NCBI GenBank assembly: GCA_017640665.1
Contig: JAEPQE010000002.1
Location: forward strand, 310,001 to 374,000
DNA from: Balneolaceae bacterium
GTDB lineage: Bacteria > Bacteroidota > Rhodothermia > Balneolales > Balneolaceae
DNA: 64,000 nt
Direction: 5' to 3'
Shown here: positions 11,679 to 46,679 of the stretch, piece after piece
How positions within the stretch are numbered: position 1 is the stretch's first letter
Layout: each line of letters starts with the position of its first letter
Translations under genes and position numbers: made by a program
Notes under the pieces: generated by a model
Database searches by the model: none
The model's input: the letters and a program-made list of their open reading frames with translations, nothing else
What the model was told of the DNA's origin: nothing

Positions 11679-12806
11679 TTAAAACCTATTCAATCTCAAA
11701 AAGTCGATAGGCAATTCAGTTTTTCCTTGCAAAGCAAGATCAGCCAGGATTTCCCCTACGACTGGAACAAACTTAAACCCGTGACCGCTGAACCCAGCTG
11801 CCAGCACTACTCTCGAGTTTGTATCAGGCAAGAAATCGATTATGAAATGTTCATCCGGGGAATAGGTGTACAAACAGGCGGTTACTTCCACAATGTCTCC
11901 ACCGATTTCCGGTAGGTATTTTTTCAGAAACGAACGAAGTTTCTCTTTCTCCTTTTCGGGATTAAGCTTGTTCAGGTCTTTTGGATGGATAAATTCCCCG
12001 GGGGCATGATGCGCGATCTTAAGTAAACCATTACCGCCCTGTTCGGCACTCAAAATCGGGAAGCCATAAAAAATACCCGGATATTCCGGTTCGGCTACTA
12101 CCCAGCAAGGAAAACGCTCCGGTGCAAACTGATCTGGATGTTCCGGTTTGATCCAGAAAATAAGCTGGCGGGTCACTGTTAGCTGATTTGAAAATCCGTG
12201 AATAAGCTGATTGGTATAAGCTCCTGCTGTCAGAATTAGTTTTTCAGTATGATACTCCATCTTATCGGTATGCACCTCCACGTAGTTGTCTTTGAGCCTC
12301 CAGCCCATCACCGTCTCTCTTGTTTGTACCTCAGCGCCCAACTTCTCCGCCTGTCCGATAAAGCTTCTGATCGTCTCCTCCGCTACCGCAAACCCCGCTT
12401 CCGGCTCTATTAATGCTTGAAAATGAGAAGGGATTTCAAACATTTTTAATTGTTCATTTATCATTCGAGCTAACCGGATATTAAATGTATTGGCAGAAAA
12501 TTCCACCCCTTCCATCACCTTATGTCCCGGCTCCCCGAAATACACCAGTCCATTTTTATGAAACAACTGTTTTCCCGTTTCTCTCTGAATGGAATCCCAG
12601 CCTTTATAGGCCTCCTCAAGCAACGGAACATAATCCGGGTGCTCGAAATAGGCTTTGCGAACAATTCGGGTCTGCCCCGAATGCGAACCCTTCGTATGAC
12701 CAATCCCGAACTGCTCCAGTCCCAATGCCTTTATTCCCCTCTTTGCAAGTTGATACAAAGCCGAAGAACCCATAGAGCCGAGACCTATAATGATGGTGTT
12801 GTACAT
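11679..12806 (-). CDS. Sarcosine oxidase-like FAD-dependent oxidoreductase
   Basis: The 375-residue protein matches monomeric sarcosine oxidase/N-methyltryptophan oxidase. The FAD-binding motif is GLGSMGSSALYQLAKRG near the N-terminus, followed by HTKGSHSGQTRIVRKAYFEHP. VTACLYTYSPDEHFIID contains the Cys used for covalent flavin attachment in the family, and GFSGHGFKFVPVVGE follows. It would oxidise an N-methyl or secondary amine and release formaldehyde or a similar product; the substrate is uncertain. TACTTTTG at 12845-12838 may be its -7 promoter element. It converges on the PhyH gene. Confidence 0.85.
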   Translation of the reverse strand: MYNTIIIGLGSMGSSALYQLAKRGIKALGLEQFGIGHTKGSHSGQTRIVRKAYFEHPDYVPLLEEAYKGWDSIQRETGKQLFHKNGLVYFGEPGHKVMEGVEFSANTFNIRLARMINEQLKMFEIPSHFQALIEPEAGFAVAEETIRSFIGQAEKLGAEVQTRETVMGWRLKDNYVEVHTDKMEYHTEKLILTAGAYTNQLIHGFSNQLTVTRQLIFWIKPEHPDQFAPERFPCWVVAEPEYPGIFYGFPILSAEQGGNGLLKIAHHAPGEFIHPKDLNKLNPEKEKEKLRSFLKKYLPEIGGDIVEVTACLYTYSPDEHFIIDFLPDTNSRVVLAAGFSGHGFKFVPVVGEILADLALQGKTELPIDFLRLNRF

Positions 12807-12876
12807 AAAGATTTTTTTGTAAAAATAGCAAAAGGAACAAAAGTACGTTTGCTTTCTCTATACTAATGCCTTTATT

Positions 12877-12909
12877 CATTATATCCTTTTAATTTCAAAG
12901 GATATAATG
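12877..12909. terminator. Perfect 13-bp hairpin
   Basis: CATTATATCCTTT (12877-12889) and its exact complement (12897-12909) surround a seven-base loop. There is no clear U-run on either side, so this may be an operator or an mRNA structure rather than a terminator. It lies between the start of the flavoenzyme gene and the putative cassette. Confidence 0.5.
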
Positions 12910-12935
12910 AGTAGAACTTAAACTTGAAAAAGGGA

Positions 12936-12958
12936 TAAAATGAACTCAGTTCATTTTA
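12936..12958. promoter_or_regulatory. 23-base palindrome, possible operator
   Basis: TAAAATGAACT (12936-12946) is followed by a single central C and its exact complement (12948-12958). A near-perfect dyad of this size, 32 bases before a start codon, fits a dimeric repressor site. No regulator can be named. Confidence 0.4.
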
Positions 12959-12966
12959 CTCTGTTG

Positions 12967-13501
12967 TTGTACGTCATGCGAAAACGAAAATGAATAGAAT
13001 ATTAATCACTCTCGGACTTTTAGTAATACCTGTAATTGGGTTTTGCGACACTTTGAACTATTGGCATGTTTACTACAATGATTCTGTAATAGCCAAATTC
13101 AACTCTGATTCCCAAGATTTGAAAATTGAAATAGACCGATCCAAAATAAAAGAAGATGATACTTTGACCGTCAGACATGGGGACGATACGCCTTGCATTA
13201 ATTGCAAATTCGTCTTGTTTGTAAGAGACGAGAAAAAACGAAAATTGAGAATTACGGAGACAAATGAATTTTGGGGCAAACTTTCATTTGGACTAAAAGA
13301 CTTAATTGAATTTGGAGATAAAAATGAGAGTAAACGATATGACTTTTATTATTGGGAACAAGATGATGATGGTGGAAAAACCCCAATGAAATTGATCCTT
13401 CAAGTGATATTTGAAGAAATAAAATAAAAAGCACAAACGCACAACAATGGCTAAATGCATGGCCAACCAACCTAACCGTGCACGACATTTTAGCCCAAAC
13501 G
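12967..13501 (+). mobile_element. Putative integron-like single-gene cassette
   Basis: A core-like GTTGTAC at 12966 and a second core-like GTTGAAG at 13501 bound 535 bases. They hold one small plus-strand gene with a 23-base leader, and directly behind its stop an attC-like imperfect palindrome. Each core matches six of seven positions of GTTRRRY. No integrase gene is in the window. The layout matches a gene cassette, but the call rests on structure alone. Confidence 0.45.
12990..13427 (+). CDS. Small secreted hypothetical protein in the putative cassette
   Basis: The 145-residue protein has a signal peptide (MNRILITLGLLVIPVIGFC). Its mature part is charged and AT-rich in coding, with paired cysteines in DDTPCINCKFVLFVRD and a final YYWEQDDDGGKTPMKLILQV. 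I do not recognise the family. Its single-gene unit, short leader and the attC-like site just after the stop fit the typical content of integron cassettes, which mostly encode unknown proteins. Base composition looks lower in GC than the flanking fhs and flavoenzyme genes. Confidence 0.65.
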   Translation: MNRILITLGLLVIPVIGFCDTLNYWHVYYNDSVIAKFNSDSQDLKIEIDRSKIKEDDTLTVRHGDDTPCINCKFVLFVRDEKKRKLRITETNEFWGKLSFGLKDLIEFGDKNESKRYDFYYWEQDDDGGKTPMKLILQVIFEEIK

Positions 13502-13507
13502 TTGAAG
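13431..13507 (+). other. attC-like imperfect palindrome
   Basis: The left arm CAACAATGGCTAAATG (13442-13457) pairs with the right arm CATTTTAGCCCAAACGTTG (13486-13504), with extra unpaired bases on one side only. Such asymmetry is a hallmark of attC sites. Length, placement after a stop codon and the outer CAAC/GTTG pair also fit. The core boxes deviate from consensus by one base or more. Confidence 0.45.
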
Positions 13508-13879
13508 AAGAATTCTTTCCCGCACCATTTATCGCAAGCAGCCTGTGCTGAACCTGTCTGCCGACAGGCAGGCTTGATTCAGTATCCGCTTGTGCTGAAT
13601 TACAACTGATATACCAAGTACTTACTGATGTTTGGTCTATCTCCCTTTGGAGGGAGATAGAAATTCACTTGTGAATTTCAGAGGGAGGACTGTGAGAATG
13701 AAGAAAGATCGAGCTATTCCAATCCTCTCCCTGATCCAAAACAAGTTTTGACTCTGTCCCTCTCCAAAGAGGGACAGTTAATTCAAGCTTTATATTCCTG
13801 AAGTACTGGGCACTTCTTAAAAAAAAGATTTTCTTTTCTTAGTGTTTTCGCGCTTTTGTGGTAGCTATTAATCTGAGAA
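13508..13879. other. Gene-free stretch with repeat sequences
   Basis: No gene is supported here. A TGCTGAACC...GATTCAGTATC hairpin element lies at about 13546-13583, related to one at 57126. Four consecutive hairpins lie at 13637-13778 (separate entry). The rest is AT-rich and carries the downstream end of the minus-strand fhs transcript. Confidence 0.6.
13637..13778 (+). repeat. Four-hairpin palindromic repeat, copy A
   Basis: Four perfect hairpins follow each other. CTATCTCCCT pairs with AGGGAGATAG (13637-13660), AAATTCAC with GTGAATTT (13661-13678), CAAAAC with GTTTTG (13737-13750), and GTCCCTCT with AGAGGGAC (13756-13775). A 27-base block (13736-13762) is identical to 15863-15889 in copy B on the other side of fhs. 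Confidence 0.75.
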
Positions 13880-15559
13880 CTAAAACAACCCCGATATCAC
13901 CCCGTCTTCATCTACGGTCATATTAACGGCGGCCGGAACTTTAGGCAGGCCGGGCATCAGCATCATATTTCCGGAAATAATGACCAGAAACCCGGCTCCG
14001 GCGGAGAGCTGAACATCAGAAACGGTAAACGTGAATCCTTTCGGAGCCCCTCGCAGCGCTGGGTTATCAGAAATAGAAGACTGCGTTTTGGCAATACATA
14101 TGGGAAGCTCGCCATAACCAAGTTCTTTAAAGCGTTTCAGATTTTGCAGGGCTTTCTTTTCAAAATAAACCACCGCCGCGCCATATACCTTTCGGGCTAC
14201 TGCTTTGATTTTATCTTCAATCGAATCCGTTTTCTCATACATCGTTCTGGTATCGGGAGATGGATTCCGAGCTACTGCCTTTGTAACCACTTTTGCGAGA
14301 CTGGTAACCCCTTCTCCCCCTTTGGTGAAGGCATTGTGAGTAGCACAAGGCACGTCTAGCGAGATGCAATAGTTTTCTATATAAGAAAGCTCATCGGGAT
14401 GATCAGTTTCAAAACGATTAACCGCTACCACCACGGGTACATTAAATAATTTCAAGTGATTAACGTGTGCTTCGAGGTTTTTTAATCCTTCTCTGAGCGC
14501 ATCATGGTTTGGCGCTCCTCCGGAAGCGTCCTCTACCGATAAACCTCCATGATATTTCAGGGCTTTGACGGTTGTTACCAATACTACAGCCGAAGGCCAT
14601 ATTCCCGAAACAGGACTTACAATATCAAAGAACTTCTCGGCTCCCAAGTCTGCACCAAAACCTGCCTCAGTAATTACATAATCTGCTAATTTAAGACCGA
14701 TCCGGTTGGCAATAATACTGCTTGTTCCATGCGCAATATTTGCGAAAGGACCTCCGTGGATTAATGCAGGTACATGTTCCATCGTCTGCACCAGATTAGG
14801 CATAATCGCTTCGTTAAGAACAACCGCCATTGCTTCGTGCGCGCCCAGATCCCTGGCTTTTACAGCTTCTCCTTTGCGGTTATAACCAACCACAATCTGT
14901 CCGAGTCTTTCCTTCAAATCTGCTCTGGAAGATGACAAAGCTAAAATCGCCATTATTTCGGAAGCAGCAGTAATAAGAAAGCCAGACTCCCTGGGAATAC
15001 CGTTTACTCTGCCTCCTAGTCCTACCACAATCTGACGAAGAGCACGGTCGTTCATATCCATAGCACGGTTCCAAAGCGGACTGGTCACATCGATATCCAG
15101 TTCATTTCCTTTGAAAATGTGATTATCGAGCATGGCTGCCAGTAAATTGTGGGCGGTGCCAATCGCGTGAATATCTCCATTAAAATGCAGGTTGATCCGC
15201 TCCATGGGAATCACCTGGGAATACCCTCCGCCGGCTGCACCCCCTTTGATACCAAAAACAGGACCAAGAGAAGGCTCCCGAAGTGTCACAATCACTTTCT
15301 TTCCGATCTTATTCATCCCCTGACTCAATCCAATAGAAGTAAGCGTTTTTCCTTCTCCGGTTGGTGTTGGAGTAATCGCGGTTACAAGAATAAGCTTCCC
15401 GTCAGGTCTCTCTTTGAATTTATCCAGCACATTCAGCCTGATTTTCCCCGTGTATTTACCATAGAATTCAAAATTTTCTTCGTCCAACTCCAGTAGCGAC
15501 ATAAAATGGCGCATGTGTTTCATAGGCGCTTGCTGCGCCAGTTTTATGCTGTCAGTCAT
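13880..15559 (-). CDS. fhs: Formate-tetrahydrofolate ligase
   Basis: The 559-residue enzyme makes 10-formyl-tetrahydrofolate from formate, ATP and tetrahydrofolate in the cytoplasm. It shows the P-loop TPTGEGKTLTSIGLSQG, the REPSLGPVFGIKGGAAGGGYSQ block and PAVVLVTT-like core segments, and has the normal family length. A good Shine-Dalgarno GGAGG lies eight bases before the ATG, unusual in this window. With MetF and MetH encoded elsewhere in the window it feeds one-carbon units. It is bordered on both sides by copies of a hairpin repeat. Confidence 0.95.
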   Translation of the reverse strand: MTDSIKLAQQAPMKHMRHFMSLLELDEENFEFYGKYTGKIRLNVLDKFKERPDGKLILVTAITPTPTGEGKTLTSIGLSQGMNKIGKKVIVTLREPSLGPVFGIKGGAAGGGYSQVIPMERINLHFNGDIHAIGTAHNLLAAMLDNHIFKGNELDIDVTSPLWNRAMDMNDRALRQIVVGLGGRVNGIPRESGFLITAASEIMAILALSSSRADLKERLGQIVVGYNRKGEAVKARDLGAHEAMAVVLNEAIMPNLVQTMEHVPALIHGGPFANIAHGTSSIIANRIGLKLADYVITEAGFGADLGAEKFFDIVSPVSGIWPSAVVLVTTVKALKYHGGLSVEDASGGAPNHDALREGLKNLEAHVNHLKLFNVPVVVAVNRFETDHPDELSYIENYCISLDVPCATHNAFTKGGEGVTSLAKVVTKAVARNPSPDTRTMYEKTDSIEDKIKAVARKVYGAAVVYFEKKALQNLKRFKELGYGELPICIAKTQSSISDNPALRGAPKGFTFTVSDVQLSAGAGFLVIISGNMMLMPGLPKVPAAVNMTVDEDGVISGLF

Positions 15560-15914
15560 GACAATACCTCCATTAGCCTTATTATTTTTACTAAGCTAAT
15601 ATGAGGAGTGGATGTGAATTTTTGATAAAGGTGGGAATCTCGTTTAAATACCTGAAAGTCTGGAAGTTAACTTACCATTCTGAGATTGATTCGTCGATTA
15701 GTTTTCGGAGCCCGTAGGAAAAACCATATTCCTCGCAATGACGCTCTTCATTTGTGATGTAAGCCAAAACTATCTCCCTTTGGAGCCTGCCTCCCGCAGG
15801 GATGCCTTCGGCAAGAGGGAGGACGTTAAGTAAAGTTTGTGCTCCACCTTCCTCTCCCTCAGCCAAAACAAGTTTTGACTCTGTCCCTCCGCGAGGAGGC
15901 ACAGTCAACATAAA
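15560..15914. other. Gene-free stretch between fhs and icmF
   Basis: Apart from the hairpin repeat at 15770-15900 I see no gene. A minus-strand open frame at 15672-15911 is made mostly of that repeat and has no protein-like composition. The part next to fhs holds its leader and Shine-Dalgarno. Confidence 0.6.
15770..15900 (+). repeat. Palindromic repeat, copy B
   Basis: It shares with copy A the opening CTATCTCCCTTTGGAG (15770-15785), GAGGGAGGAC (15815-15824), CCTCTCCCT and a 27-base block at 15863-15889. The spacing of these blocks is nearly the same in both. The interior hairpins differ (CCTGCCTCCCGCAGG, GCCTTCGGC), so the structure is kept while the sequence has drifted. Confidence 0.75.
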
Positions 15915-18900: not shown

Positions 18901-19379
18901 TCTTTAAGCATGAAATTAATCATGCCTTGAAGTCCCATTTTACTTCCATCTTCCACAGAAAAGATGCGAGTCACACCTGAAGCATGGAGGTCATCAATCT
19001 CATCCTGAACAATGACACCTCCCCCGCCTCCAAATACTTTAATATGATCGGCTCCATTCTCTCGTAGTAATTCGATCATGTATTTGAAATACTCTACATG
19101 GCCTCCCTGATATGAACTGATAGCAATTCCCTGCACATCTTCCTGAATAGCACAATTCACAATTTCGTGTACAGAGCGGTTATGCCCCAAATGAATTACT
19201 TCTGCACCGCTACCTTGCAAAATACGTCGCATAATATTTATGCTGGCATCATGTCCATCAAATAAACTAGCGGCGGTTACAAATCGAATTTTATGTTCTG
19301 ATGAATAGGGTTTATTAGGAGATCCGTTAGAATTCCCTTTACTCTCTGATTCAATGCTTTTCTTTGTTTTTGTTGCCAT
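15915..19379 (-). CDS. icmF: Fused isobutyryl-CoA mutase IcmF
   Basis: The 1154-residue protein joins three parts. A B12-binding domain comes first (about 30-165, with DGHDAS at 41-46 supplying the cobalt-ligand His). A MeaB-like GTPase chaperone follows (P-loop [12 protein letters not shown] at about 226-237), then the mutase barrel (from about 560 on). The catalytic part reads [14 protein letters not shown] and [10 protein letters not shown], as in IcmF rather than methylmalonyl-CoA mutase. It interconverts isobutyryl-CoA and butyryl-CoA, or related branched acyl-CoAs, with adenosylcobalamin. The built-in GTPase gates cofactor loading. Confidence 0.93.
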
Positions 19380-19410
19380 CTGCGATGTTTTCTATTCGTG
19401 GAAGCGTTTC

Positions 19411-19441
19411 CAAAGATAGGGATTTAACAAGGCTTAAAACA
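19411..19441 (-). promoter_or_regulatory. Bacteroidota-type promoter of icmF
   Basis: On the minus strand TATCTTTG (19418-19411) is a perfect TAnnTTTG -7 element, placed 32 bases before the icmF start. The -33 region about 19-20 bases upstream reads TGTTTTA, a weak match to TTTG. Confidence 0.45.
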
Positions 19442-19461
19442 GACTATTTACATCGATTAAA

Positions 19462-20373
19462 TTATTCTTTTTCAGAATGATCTGTTGGTAAGTTTTGACC
19501 AAGATTTTCTAAATCTTTCTTATATACAATAGTTCGGTAAGGAAACGGAATCTCAATTCCTTCTTTATCGAATCTTTTTTTGATGCTTTCAAGTAAGTCC
19601 GTTCCCATTACGAAAGCAGATGGAGGATCGGCTGCAGTAGCCCAGGCTCGCAGGTTAACTGAGAAATCCCCTAACGTTAAAAGCCTGACCGGAACTTTAG
19701 GATCTCCATTTGCGAGCTGATCTTCATTTCTGTTATCAATGAAATTAGGATGGGCTTCCACCTCTTCCTGCATAATTTTCCGAGCCAGATCGATATCAGA
19801 GTCATAGCTTATTCCAACATCAATCCATTTTATGATTTTATCATCTCCGTAATTTGAGTTTATCAGCACTTCATCACTGATTACAGAGTTTGGAATAATG
19901 ATGCGTTTATTTTCAAAATTACGGATTACGGTGTGTCTAAGGTTGATATCTTCCACCACTCCACTAAGGTCTGTTCTTATCTGTAATCGATCATTAATTT
20001 TATAAGGCTTAAATATTACAATAAAGATTCCACCAATGATGTTCGACAGCGCCTGCTGCGATGCAAAACCTACAGCAACAGCAAACAATCCCGCACCGGC
20101 AAGTAATGAAGTTGCAATAACACGAAGTGACGGAACCATATAAATAGCAAAACTTATCCCCGTCAGATAAATAAGAACCGAAACCCCACGTTTGAGGAAT
20201 TTGAGATTAGTAAGATCGTGTGATTCGCCTTCGCCTTGTTCGGTTTTTCGAATGGCGGAGTTAAATAAACGTGCAGTAACTGCAGCAATGATAGTAGTAG
20301 CAAGTAAAATTACCCCTATTTTGATCGGCAGATGCCAGATTTGAGGTATGTAATCTATAATTAATTCGTCCAT
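19462..20373 (-). CDS. MscS-family mechanosensitive channel
   Basis: The 303-residue protein has three membrane helices in the first 110 residues. The pore helix reads LLAGAGLFAVAVGFASQQALSNIIGG and is followed by the MscS beta domain (PYKINDRLQI, GVVEDINLRHTVIRNFENKRIIIPNS). A C-terminal alpha/beta domain ends with EIPFPYRTIVYKK. It would open under osmotic downshock in the inner membrane. The preceding lipoprotein gene ends directly where this one starts, so they are cotranscribed. Confidence 0.92.
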   Translation of the reverse strand: MDELIIDYIPQIWHLPIKIGVILLATTIIAAVTARLFNSAIRKTEQGEGESHDLTNLKFLKRGVSVLIYLTGISFAIYMVPSLRVIATSLLAGAGLFAVAVGFASQQALSNIIGGIFIVIFKPYKINDRLQIRTDLSGVVEDINLRHTVIRNFENKRIIIPNSVISDEVLINSNYGDDKIIKWIDVGISYDSDIDLARKIMQEEVEAHPNFIDNRNEDQLANGDPKVPVRLLTLGDFSVNLRAWATAADPPSAFVMGTDLLESIKKRFDKEGIEIPFPYRTIVYKKDLENLGQNLPTDHSEKE

Positions 20374-22075: not shown

Positions 22076-23401
22076 ATGGGATCAAGCAAAATTCATATCC
22101 ATCGCTTTATATCAAAGCTGCTCTTGTTAGGTGTTATCTTTTTATCTGTTGGATGCCATTCTTATATGCTGGATGATGCCCAGTACGAGCTTCGGGACTC
22201 CTTTACTGATGGAAATTACGAGCGATCCCAATCGCTCCTCAATAAATTTGAGGAGAAAAACCTTTACAAATCGAAAGACAAGGTTCTTTGGAACCTCGAA
22301 AATGGAATAATTTATCATTTCTCGGGTCAATACGATTCGAGTACTGCCTTTCTAAACCGTGCTGAGATTGAAATCGAAAATAACTATACCAAAAGTATAA
22401 GCCGTGGATTCGCATCTTTTTTAAGCAACGATAACAAACTCGCTTACGATGGCGAACCCTACGAAAACATCTACCTGAATGCATTTAAAGCATTAAATTT
22501 TGTTCATCAAAAAGACTGGGAAGGCGCATTGGTTGAAACCCGTAGAATGTCATTCAAAATGGAGCAACTGGATATTAAAATTAAAGGTCTTGCAGACGCT
22601 TTATCAAAAGCAGACACAACTGGTAGAGCAGAGTGGTCTTCAGGAAGGGTAAATATCCAGAACAGCGCTTTCAGTCATTATTTATCTGCAGTTTTGTATG
22701 CGAAAACAAGGAGACCTGATAATGCCCGGATTGAATTTGAGAAGCTGGGAATCGCTCTTAGGGAGCAAGCTGAGCTTGGGGATTATGAGCCTTTTGACGT
22801 TTCTAATCTTGCTCAAATCCGAGAACCTGAGTCTTACAACGTGTTGCTAACAAGCTTTACGGGACAGTCGCCCATTAAATTTCAGGAAGATATCAGGCTT
22901 TGGGACGATGATTACTATTTAAAATTTTCCTTTCCTTCTGTTGAATTATACCCCACCCAGGTTTCCGGGGTTCGCGTAAACATTAATGGAGAAGATGATA
23001 TCAACCTTCACCTGATCGAGGAAATGGACTTAGTCTCTAAAGATGTTTACAGGGCTAAGCAACCCATTATATATACAAGAGCACTGTTACGATCTCTGAT
23101 TAAAGCAGGCGGATCAAAATTCATCACAAAAGCTATAGAAGATGAAAACGAAAATCTCGGTTTGTTAGCAAGTATTGCCAGCTTCATCTTTAAGGAAGCA
23201 AGTGAGAAAGCAGATTTAAGAGGGTGGCAAACCTTGCCGGGACAAGCCTGGATGAATGTTGTAAAATTACCGCCAGGCACAAATAAGGTAACGCTCGAAT
23301 ATCTTTCAAATACAGGAAGAGTACTCTACTCTGAAGATTATGAAGTTGATATTACTGAGAATACCCAGCTGGAACTTATAGAATCGATTTATTCAAAATG
23401 A
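22076..23401 (+). CDS. COG3014-type lipoprotein
   Basis: The 441-residue protein has a signal peptide ending in the lipobox VGC at about residue 27. It continues with TPR-like helices (DSSTAFLNRAEIEIE, LNAFKALNFVHQKDWEGALVETRRM) and a C-terminal beta-rich domain with TLPGQAWMNVVKLPPGTNKVTLEY. This architecture matches the uncharacterised COG3014 family. It is followed with a four-base overlap region by an LpoB-like gene, a pairing seen in many Gram-negative bacteria. That suggests a shared role at the peptidoglycan or outer membrane. Confidence 0.78.
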   Translation: MGSSKIHIHRFISKLLLLGVIFLSVGCHSYMLDDAQYELRDSFTDGNYERSQSLLNKFEEKNLYKSKDKVLWNLENGIIYHFSGQYDSSTAFLNRAEIEIENNYTKSISRGFASFLSNDNKLAYDGEPYENIYLNAFKALNFVHQKDWEGALVETRRMSFKMEQLDIKIKGLADALSKADTTGRAEWSSGRVNIQNSAFSHYLSAVLYAKTRRPDNARIEFEKLGIALREQAELGDYEPFDVSNLAQIREPESYNVLLTSFTGQSPIKFQEDIRLWDDDYYLKFSFPSVELYPTQVSGVRVNINGEDDINLHLIEEMDLVSKDVYRAKQPIIYTRALLRSLIKAGGSKFITKAIEDENENLGLLASIASFIFKEASEKADLRGWQTLPGQAWMNVVKLPPGTNKVTLEYLSNTGRVLYSEDYEVDITENTQLELIESIYSK

Positions 23402-23433
23402 ACATTAATACTCAAAACCAACAAATCACCGCT

Positions 23434-24039
23434 ATGAAATATTCTTTTTTAAGCATCATTATGTTGGCAATGCTAATAACCGCTTGCCGACCTTCGAACG
23501 AAGTTACCCGGATCGACCCGGGCTCAACCACTGACCTTTCCGGAAGATGGAATGACACTGATGCCCGTCTCGTGGCAGAAGAAATGATCAGCGACGCTCT
23601 CACAAAGCCCTGGCTTAATCAATTCAGTAGAAACAATCAGCAACCCCCTGTTCTCATTCTGGGCAAAGTCCGAAATGAAAGTATGGAACATATCGATACC
23701 GAGGTATTTACCAAAGAAATGGAACGTGCTTTTGTGAATTCCGGATCTGTATCAATGGTAGCCAACTCTCAGGAACGTCAACAAGTGCGTGATGAACGAG
23801 CCGATCAGCAAACCAATGCTTCATACGAAACCACTAAAAAGATGGCACAGGAGCTCGGAGCCGACTTTATGATGATTGGAAATATCAATTCTATTGTAGA
23901 TGAAGCCGTAGACAACCGTACCCTGGCTGTGTTCTATACGGTAAACCTTGAACTCATAAATGTGGAAACCAACCAAAAAGTTTGGATTGGTAATAAGAAG
24001 ATTAAGAAATTAATCGAACGCAGAAACTATCGCGGTTAA
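23434..24039 (+). CDS. LpoB-like penicillin-binding-protein activator
   Basis: From the ATG at 23434 the product has a lipoprotein signal (MKYSFLSIIMLAMLITAC). The LpoB-type domain shows PPVLILGKVRNESMEHID, ELGADFMMIGNINSIVDEA and VNLELINVETNQKVWIG. LpoB in Escherichia coli reaches from the outer membrane to activate PBP1b; the partner here is unknown. An ATG at 23398 overlapping the previous stop (ATGA) would add 12 residues before the signal and may serve coupling. A terminator follows. Confidence 0.8.
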   Translation: MKYSFLSIIMLAMLITACRPSNEVTRIDPGSTTDLSGRWNDTDARLVAEEMISDALTKPWLNQFSRNNQQPPVLILGKVRNESMEHIDTEVFTKEMERAFVNSGSVSMVANSQERQQVRDERADQQTNASYETTKKMAQELGADFMMIGNINSIVDEAVDNRTLAVFYTVNLELINVETNQKVWIGNKKIKKLIERRNYRG

Positions 24040-46503: not shown

Positions 46504-46553
46504 TCTGTTCTGTAAATGATTGGCTTATTAACAAAGAGTGACGGAAAAGCTCA

Positions 46554-46663
46554 CTTATTTTTCCCGGCACATCACCGAGTGGGATTTGGCACCTTTCTCC
46601 TCCTTTTGGTGGATCGGTTGCCAAGACTTCATCGGGCCCATTCCCTCAGTCTTTCTTAATAAG
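46554..46663 (-). ncRNA. SAM-I (S-box) riboswitch
   Basis: The minus-strand leader shows the S-box core in order: the P1 strand CTTATTAAG, GAGGGAATGGGCCCGATGAA, GGCAACC, AAGGTGCCAAATCCC, then the closing AAATAAG. It binds S-adenosylmethionine and should lower metH/metF expression when SAM is plentiful. Downstream, TTAATAAGC (46530-46522) is fully complementary to the 5' P1 strand and could form the competing structure. Confidence 0.93.
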
Positions 46664-46679
46664 CATTAAAATAATTAAT

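Follow-up and report, generated by a model that had tools for sequence, protein, structure and literature searches.

The stretch of DNA analysed here (the window, 64 kb in all, to which all coordinates refer unless a contig or locus is named) comes from a Balneolaceae genome of 3.8 Mb in 9 contigs and carries a 535 bp unit that is an integron cassette (12967..13501, + strand). The unit lies between the genes for a FAD-dependent oxidoreductase (DAO; 11679..12806, −) and a formate-tetrahydrofolate ligase (13880..15559, −), both of which are outside it and the second of which was not found in the two other genomes of the genus. It begins within a core site, GTTGTAC (12966-12972), from which a 23-nt leader runs to an ATG at 12990 in the window sequence, and its only gene (12990..13427, +) encodes a protein of 145 amino acids with a signal-peptide-like N-terminus. 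The second core site, GTTGAAG, belongs to an attC site at the end of the unit, such that the criteria for an integron cassette are fulfilled, i.e. G^TT core sites bounding a mobile unit, one gene and a terminal attC. The original prediction had placed both core sites, the leader, the small gene and the hairpin correctly, and the AT-rich composition that it suspected is borne out by an ORF GC content of 32.6% compared to 40.0% for the window, which falls in the lowest 2% of 438-nt stretches. None of the libraries scanned places the protein in a family at its curated cut-offs, and structure searching yielded neither a convincing fold match nor a function; its single-sequence AlphaFold model is mostly beta (pLDDT 74).

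Following the attC, the array ends in a second cassette, a truncated geneless mini-cassette of which only the start is present (13501..13515, +; GTTGAAGAAGAATTC). All 15 of its 15 bases are identical to the start of a geneless cassette at L127:5849, and similar truncated copies occur in L116 and L124. A proposal that GTTGAAGAAGAATTC is sequence shared with the relative G002 was dropped, as in that genome it lies inside a gene downstream of G002's own cassette. Geneless mini-cassettes, each a short hairpin with a GTTG start and a CAAC end followed by an apparent attC, recur in several arrays (L127:5849, −; L132:6211, +; L119:5393, −; L112:3002, +; L124:5735, −). The window also has three matches to the whalefall-1 RNA (13637-13690, +; 13722-13777, −; 15849-15904, −), two of them on opposite strands directly past the end of the array, and a SAM riboswitch (46552-46665, −).

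The attC site (13439..13507, +) consists of R'' GCACAAC (13439-13445), L'' GGCTAAA (13449-13455), L' TTTAGCC (13489-13495) and R' GTTGAAG (13501-13507). The hairpin pairs CAAC with GTTG, GGCTAAA (13449) with TTTAGCC (13489) and TGCATGG (13456) with CCGTGCA (13476), and has a one-sided bulge of 6 nt. Its folding energy is unremarkable (z −1.6, with 13 of 200 shuffles equally good), and a Python attC scorer, poorly tuned and used at a threshold of 30, did not list the site and preferred a pairing within the upstream attI. A strict regular-expression harvest of attC sites gave 13 sites. A covariance model (R1) was built from eight aligned attC sites of relatives with the window site left out; both sides change in 6 of its 11 stem pairs, and 87% of cells pair compared to 72% in shuffles. 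With filters off, R1 finds the window attC at 36.5 bits (E 1.8e-6), the runner-up in the 64 kb reaching 11.2 bits, and it returns four matches over the whole genome. The palindrome with one-sided bulges that had been read as an attC design thus has that design, and the covariance search proposed as its check is significant.

Further support comes from the rule that R'' is complementary to the start of its own cassette, as expected if the junction was closed in a circular form. The window R'', ACGCACAAC, differs at one position in nine from the ACGTACAAC expected from the cassette's own start, which meets the criterion. An exact 9-nt complement between R'' and own cassette start was found in 14 of 33 attI loci, whereas 2000 permutations gave 1.4 on average and never more than 6. 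The form of this test was fixed only after the complementarity comparison had been made, its loci were partly selected for the presence of attI, several of them have no clear first attC, and the first 150 bases, within which geneless mini-cassettes fall, were excluded. In the large array of G011, where 12 attC positions were chosen from covariance and regular-expression matches and not by this rule, 10 of the 12 cassettes follow it exactly at 9 of 9 bases.

A search of a plasmid collection with the cassette protein found one close relative (82% protein identity), in Persicobacter sp. JZB09, a member of another class (Cytophagia), where the homologous unit lies on a plasmid (CP012852.1). At the DNA level the two copies are alike from the core at 12964 to the left arm of attC at about 13493, with 85% nucleotide identity over 530 bp, and their flanks are dissimilar. 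The dN/dS between them is 0.20, and by this comparison the gene has been under purifying selection. The 394 genomes of the phylum yielded only one further relative of the protein, which is distant (34%). Near the homologous cassette, the Persicobacter plasmid (L185) carries two closely similar units (19055-19951 and 23105-24001), each with a 298-aa tyrosine recombinase and a 388-aa ORF. The significance of the window attC rests on the R1 match, this homologous cassette and the start/R'' complementarity, and not on folding energy.

Upstream of the first core lies an attI-type site (about 12871..12966, +), with one inverted repeat at 12873-12892/12894-12913 and a second formed by TAAAATGAAC (12936-12945) and GTTCATTTTA (12949-12958), which ends in TCTGTTG with the crossover G at 12966. 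Related elements were found in 14 Balneolaceae genomes, beside different genes and cassettes, and the window element aligns with the attI of intact integrons of a second type (type-2, below). As far as a conserved element that is also present in integrase-linked attI can establish it, without recombination data, the attI criterion of a complete integron is met at the window. The criterion of an integrase adjoining the attI is not met, nor is that of a CALIN (at least two attC without an integrase), as there is only one attC. On the opposite strand, nine bases at the edge of the attI (12871..12879, −; ATGAATAAA, encoding MNK) have the position and sequence of the integrase start in relatives and are probably the relic of a lost integrase start, although they are weak evidence alone. 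Beyond them no integrase sequence is recognisable at the site, a tblastn search for remnants giving only chance-level matches (E 0.44), and no intact integrase was found elsewhere in the genome with TIGR02249 or with the 280-aa protein at E 1e-60. Since no intact copy was found, the window site is a relic.

Five further relic sites are present in the same genome, at C2:215.8 kb, C3:181.8 kb, C2:637 kb, C3:about 280 kb and C3:498 kb. The last of these retains an in-frame piece of the integrase, 77 aa long and made up of residues 1-57 plus 260-280. Several attC-like sites can be read there, of which one is a clear match to the covariance model, and its cassette genes encode a TIR protein and an alpha/beta hydrolase. 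In G042, two shorter integrase remnants (62 and 35 aa) are found. At one orthologous attI, C2:215.8 kb of the present genome (G000) and C1:2104 kb of G002, flanks that are 75% and 79% identical enclose differing cassettes, which shows an exchange of cassettes at this site. At the window locus itself, G002 has the neighbouring genes and lacks the attI/cassette site, with neither element beside its DAO orthologue. The original prediction had named a comparison with relatives as a check, and would have been refuted by an insignificant attC score and by relatives sharing the gene and flanks with no cassette boundary; neither is the case. Its lone cassette without a recognisable integrase also stands, and what it lacked was the setting, namely a proper attI of about 100 bp belonging to a second type of integron, together with the five other relic sites, one of which holds an integrase remnant.

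In relatives, this kind of attI is directly abutted by an intact tyrosine recombinase of about 280 aa, whose gene is divergent from attI with the cassette array next to it, as the location criterion for IntI requires; G063 has a window-type attI and the intact gene at one place. The best match of this type-2 recombinase is XerA (5HXY; 141 bits), slightly above IntI4. It scores 218.6 bits against NF040815 (cut-off 220) and 205 bits against TIGR02249, below the cut-off of 265. Its alignment to IntI4 (2A3V) falls into two blocks with a visible gap where the I2 region is omitted, whereas the ordinary IntI of Balneolaceae aligns with IntI4 end to end, and the criterion of an I2 (additional-domain) insertion is thus not met. 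The loop of the window attC, ACCAACCTAACCG, recurs in one attC of the type-2 array of G011. Type-2 examples outside Balneolaceae are found in G185 and G283. No convincing attC or junction match was seen at the loci of more distantly related recombinases (L167-L170, L174, L175), so the association is not valid for the whole protein family. Matches to defence models (AriAB-like ATPase, TIR, AbiZ-like) occur among the genes of type-2 arrays in L172, L124 and L180.

Taken together, these observations make it very probable that the window feature is a gene cassette inserted at the attI of a type-2 integron that later lost its integrase. An integron integrase would have inserted the single cassette by attI x attC recombination, crossing over between G12966 and T12967. 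The platform would be a second type of integron, present in Balneolaceae and other Bacteroidota, and its recombinase an XerA/IntI-like protein of about 280 aa without I2, encoded divergently right beside attI; subsequent loss of its gene, of which the start-codon region may remain, would have left the cassette stranded. The cassette boundaries, the attC, the attI family, the linkage to an integrase in relatives, the integrase remnants and the cassette exchange at one orthologous attI are established from sequence comparison. It is from linkage, and from genomes in which no IntI was detected, that the insertion is attributed to the I2-less recombinase, catalysis itself remaining an inference, as do the use of a folded single-stranded attC and the present static state of the window site. 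A weak point is that the integrase link at the window rests on relatives, with only nine bases of a possible start remaining.

Considering the alternatives, an ordinary I2-bearing IntI may have inserted the cassette in trans, with the I2-less recombinase a bystander, which we consider unlikely. The intI search proposed in the original prediction found none in the genus. Many members of the family do carry ordinary IntI (above the cut-off in 50 of 92 Balneolaceae genomes), which also accompanies window-type sites in G018, G039 and G014, and this gives the reading some footing. However, the attI that accompanies ordinary IntI differs in sequence, R1 has no match in 100 kb of ordinary IntI arrays, ordinary IntI was not found in G011, in spite of its large array, or in G042, both of which have type-2 integrons, and where relic sites keep integrase remnants, these belong to the I2-less type. 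Another recombinase, which these genomes have since lost or which the assemblies do not include, could still have acted instead. Another alternative is off-target capture, in which the cassette entered a degenerate site in the genome (attG) and no real attI was involved. It has a precedent in the literature, where attG is listed as an additional substrate for integron integrases, but its criterion, a degenerate core with no attI, is not fulfilled: a conserved two-palindrome sequence of about 100 bp precedes the core at many places and corresponds to the attI next to intact recombinase genes, and with the integrase remnants also against it we regard this reading as very improbable. The idea of an ordinary chromosomal gene with a terminator-like hairpin, for which the unexceptional hairpin energy and the shortness of GTTG-type cores could be cited, is refuted by the covariance match (the next best being 11 bits), the cassette-length homologue in another class and the junction test taken together, with the G002 locus without the gene also against it, and is scarcely tenable.

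The preferred reading, a stranded cassette of a type-2 integron, has likenesses among known systems. Like sedentary chromosomal integrons, CALINs and single attC sites (PMC9024848), the system has attI, attC cassettes, a G^TT crossover and, at the window, no integrase; the differences are that the attI has been kept, that the platform integrase of relatives lacks I2 and that the attC model built here finds no match in the family's IntI arrays. In Treponema phagedenis intI has been lost while attC and cassettes remain (PMC3607928), to which the present genome, with six such sites, adds a surviving attI and in some cases pieces of the integrase. The type-2 recombinase resembles IntI (IntI4 2A3V; TIGR02249) in being aligned with it and divergent from attI and a cassette array, and differs in its length, missing insertion and sub-threshold score. 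Its closest solved relative is XerA, from which, as from NF040815, it differs in being linked to attI and arrays. The cassette is a further example of an already known kind of unit, and the platform looks like a new form of integron, although a prior description could have been missed in a search of open-licence literature. Consistent with the view in the original prediction that integrons are little described in this lineage, the work presenting IntegronFinder 2.0 reported one complete integron in Bacteroidetes (PMC9024848).

I2 has been held to be necessary for cassette capture, to be found in no other protein and to mark the key step in integrase evolution (PMC7790495), and its deletion abolishes IntI1 activity (Messier and Roy 2001, cited in PMC7790495). 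In a subgroup of integron-like tyrosine recombinases the insertion is not fully conserved, and it is called essential for integron function (PMC8138268); the insertion-free members described here, in contrast, adjoin cassette arrays. No recombination assay of an I2-less recombinase on attC was found in the open-licence literature searched. We think it fairly likely that Bacteroidota carry working integrons with a short XerA-like integrase that never had, or has lost, I2, and that capture is possible without it; loss and original absence cannot be told apart because the deep nodes of the FastTree recombinase tree, which is indicative only, are weakly supported. Because the recombinase falls below the TIGR02249 cut-off, we infer that tools relying on IntI profiles may score type-2 loci as CALIN. 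With cassette arrays occurring naturally next to I2-less recombinases, the claim that I2 is necessary would become directly testable, and the window illustrates integron decay, in which attI and cassette outlast the integrase and the cassette gene shows purifying selection.
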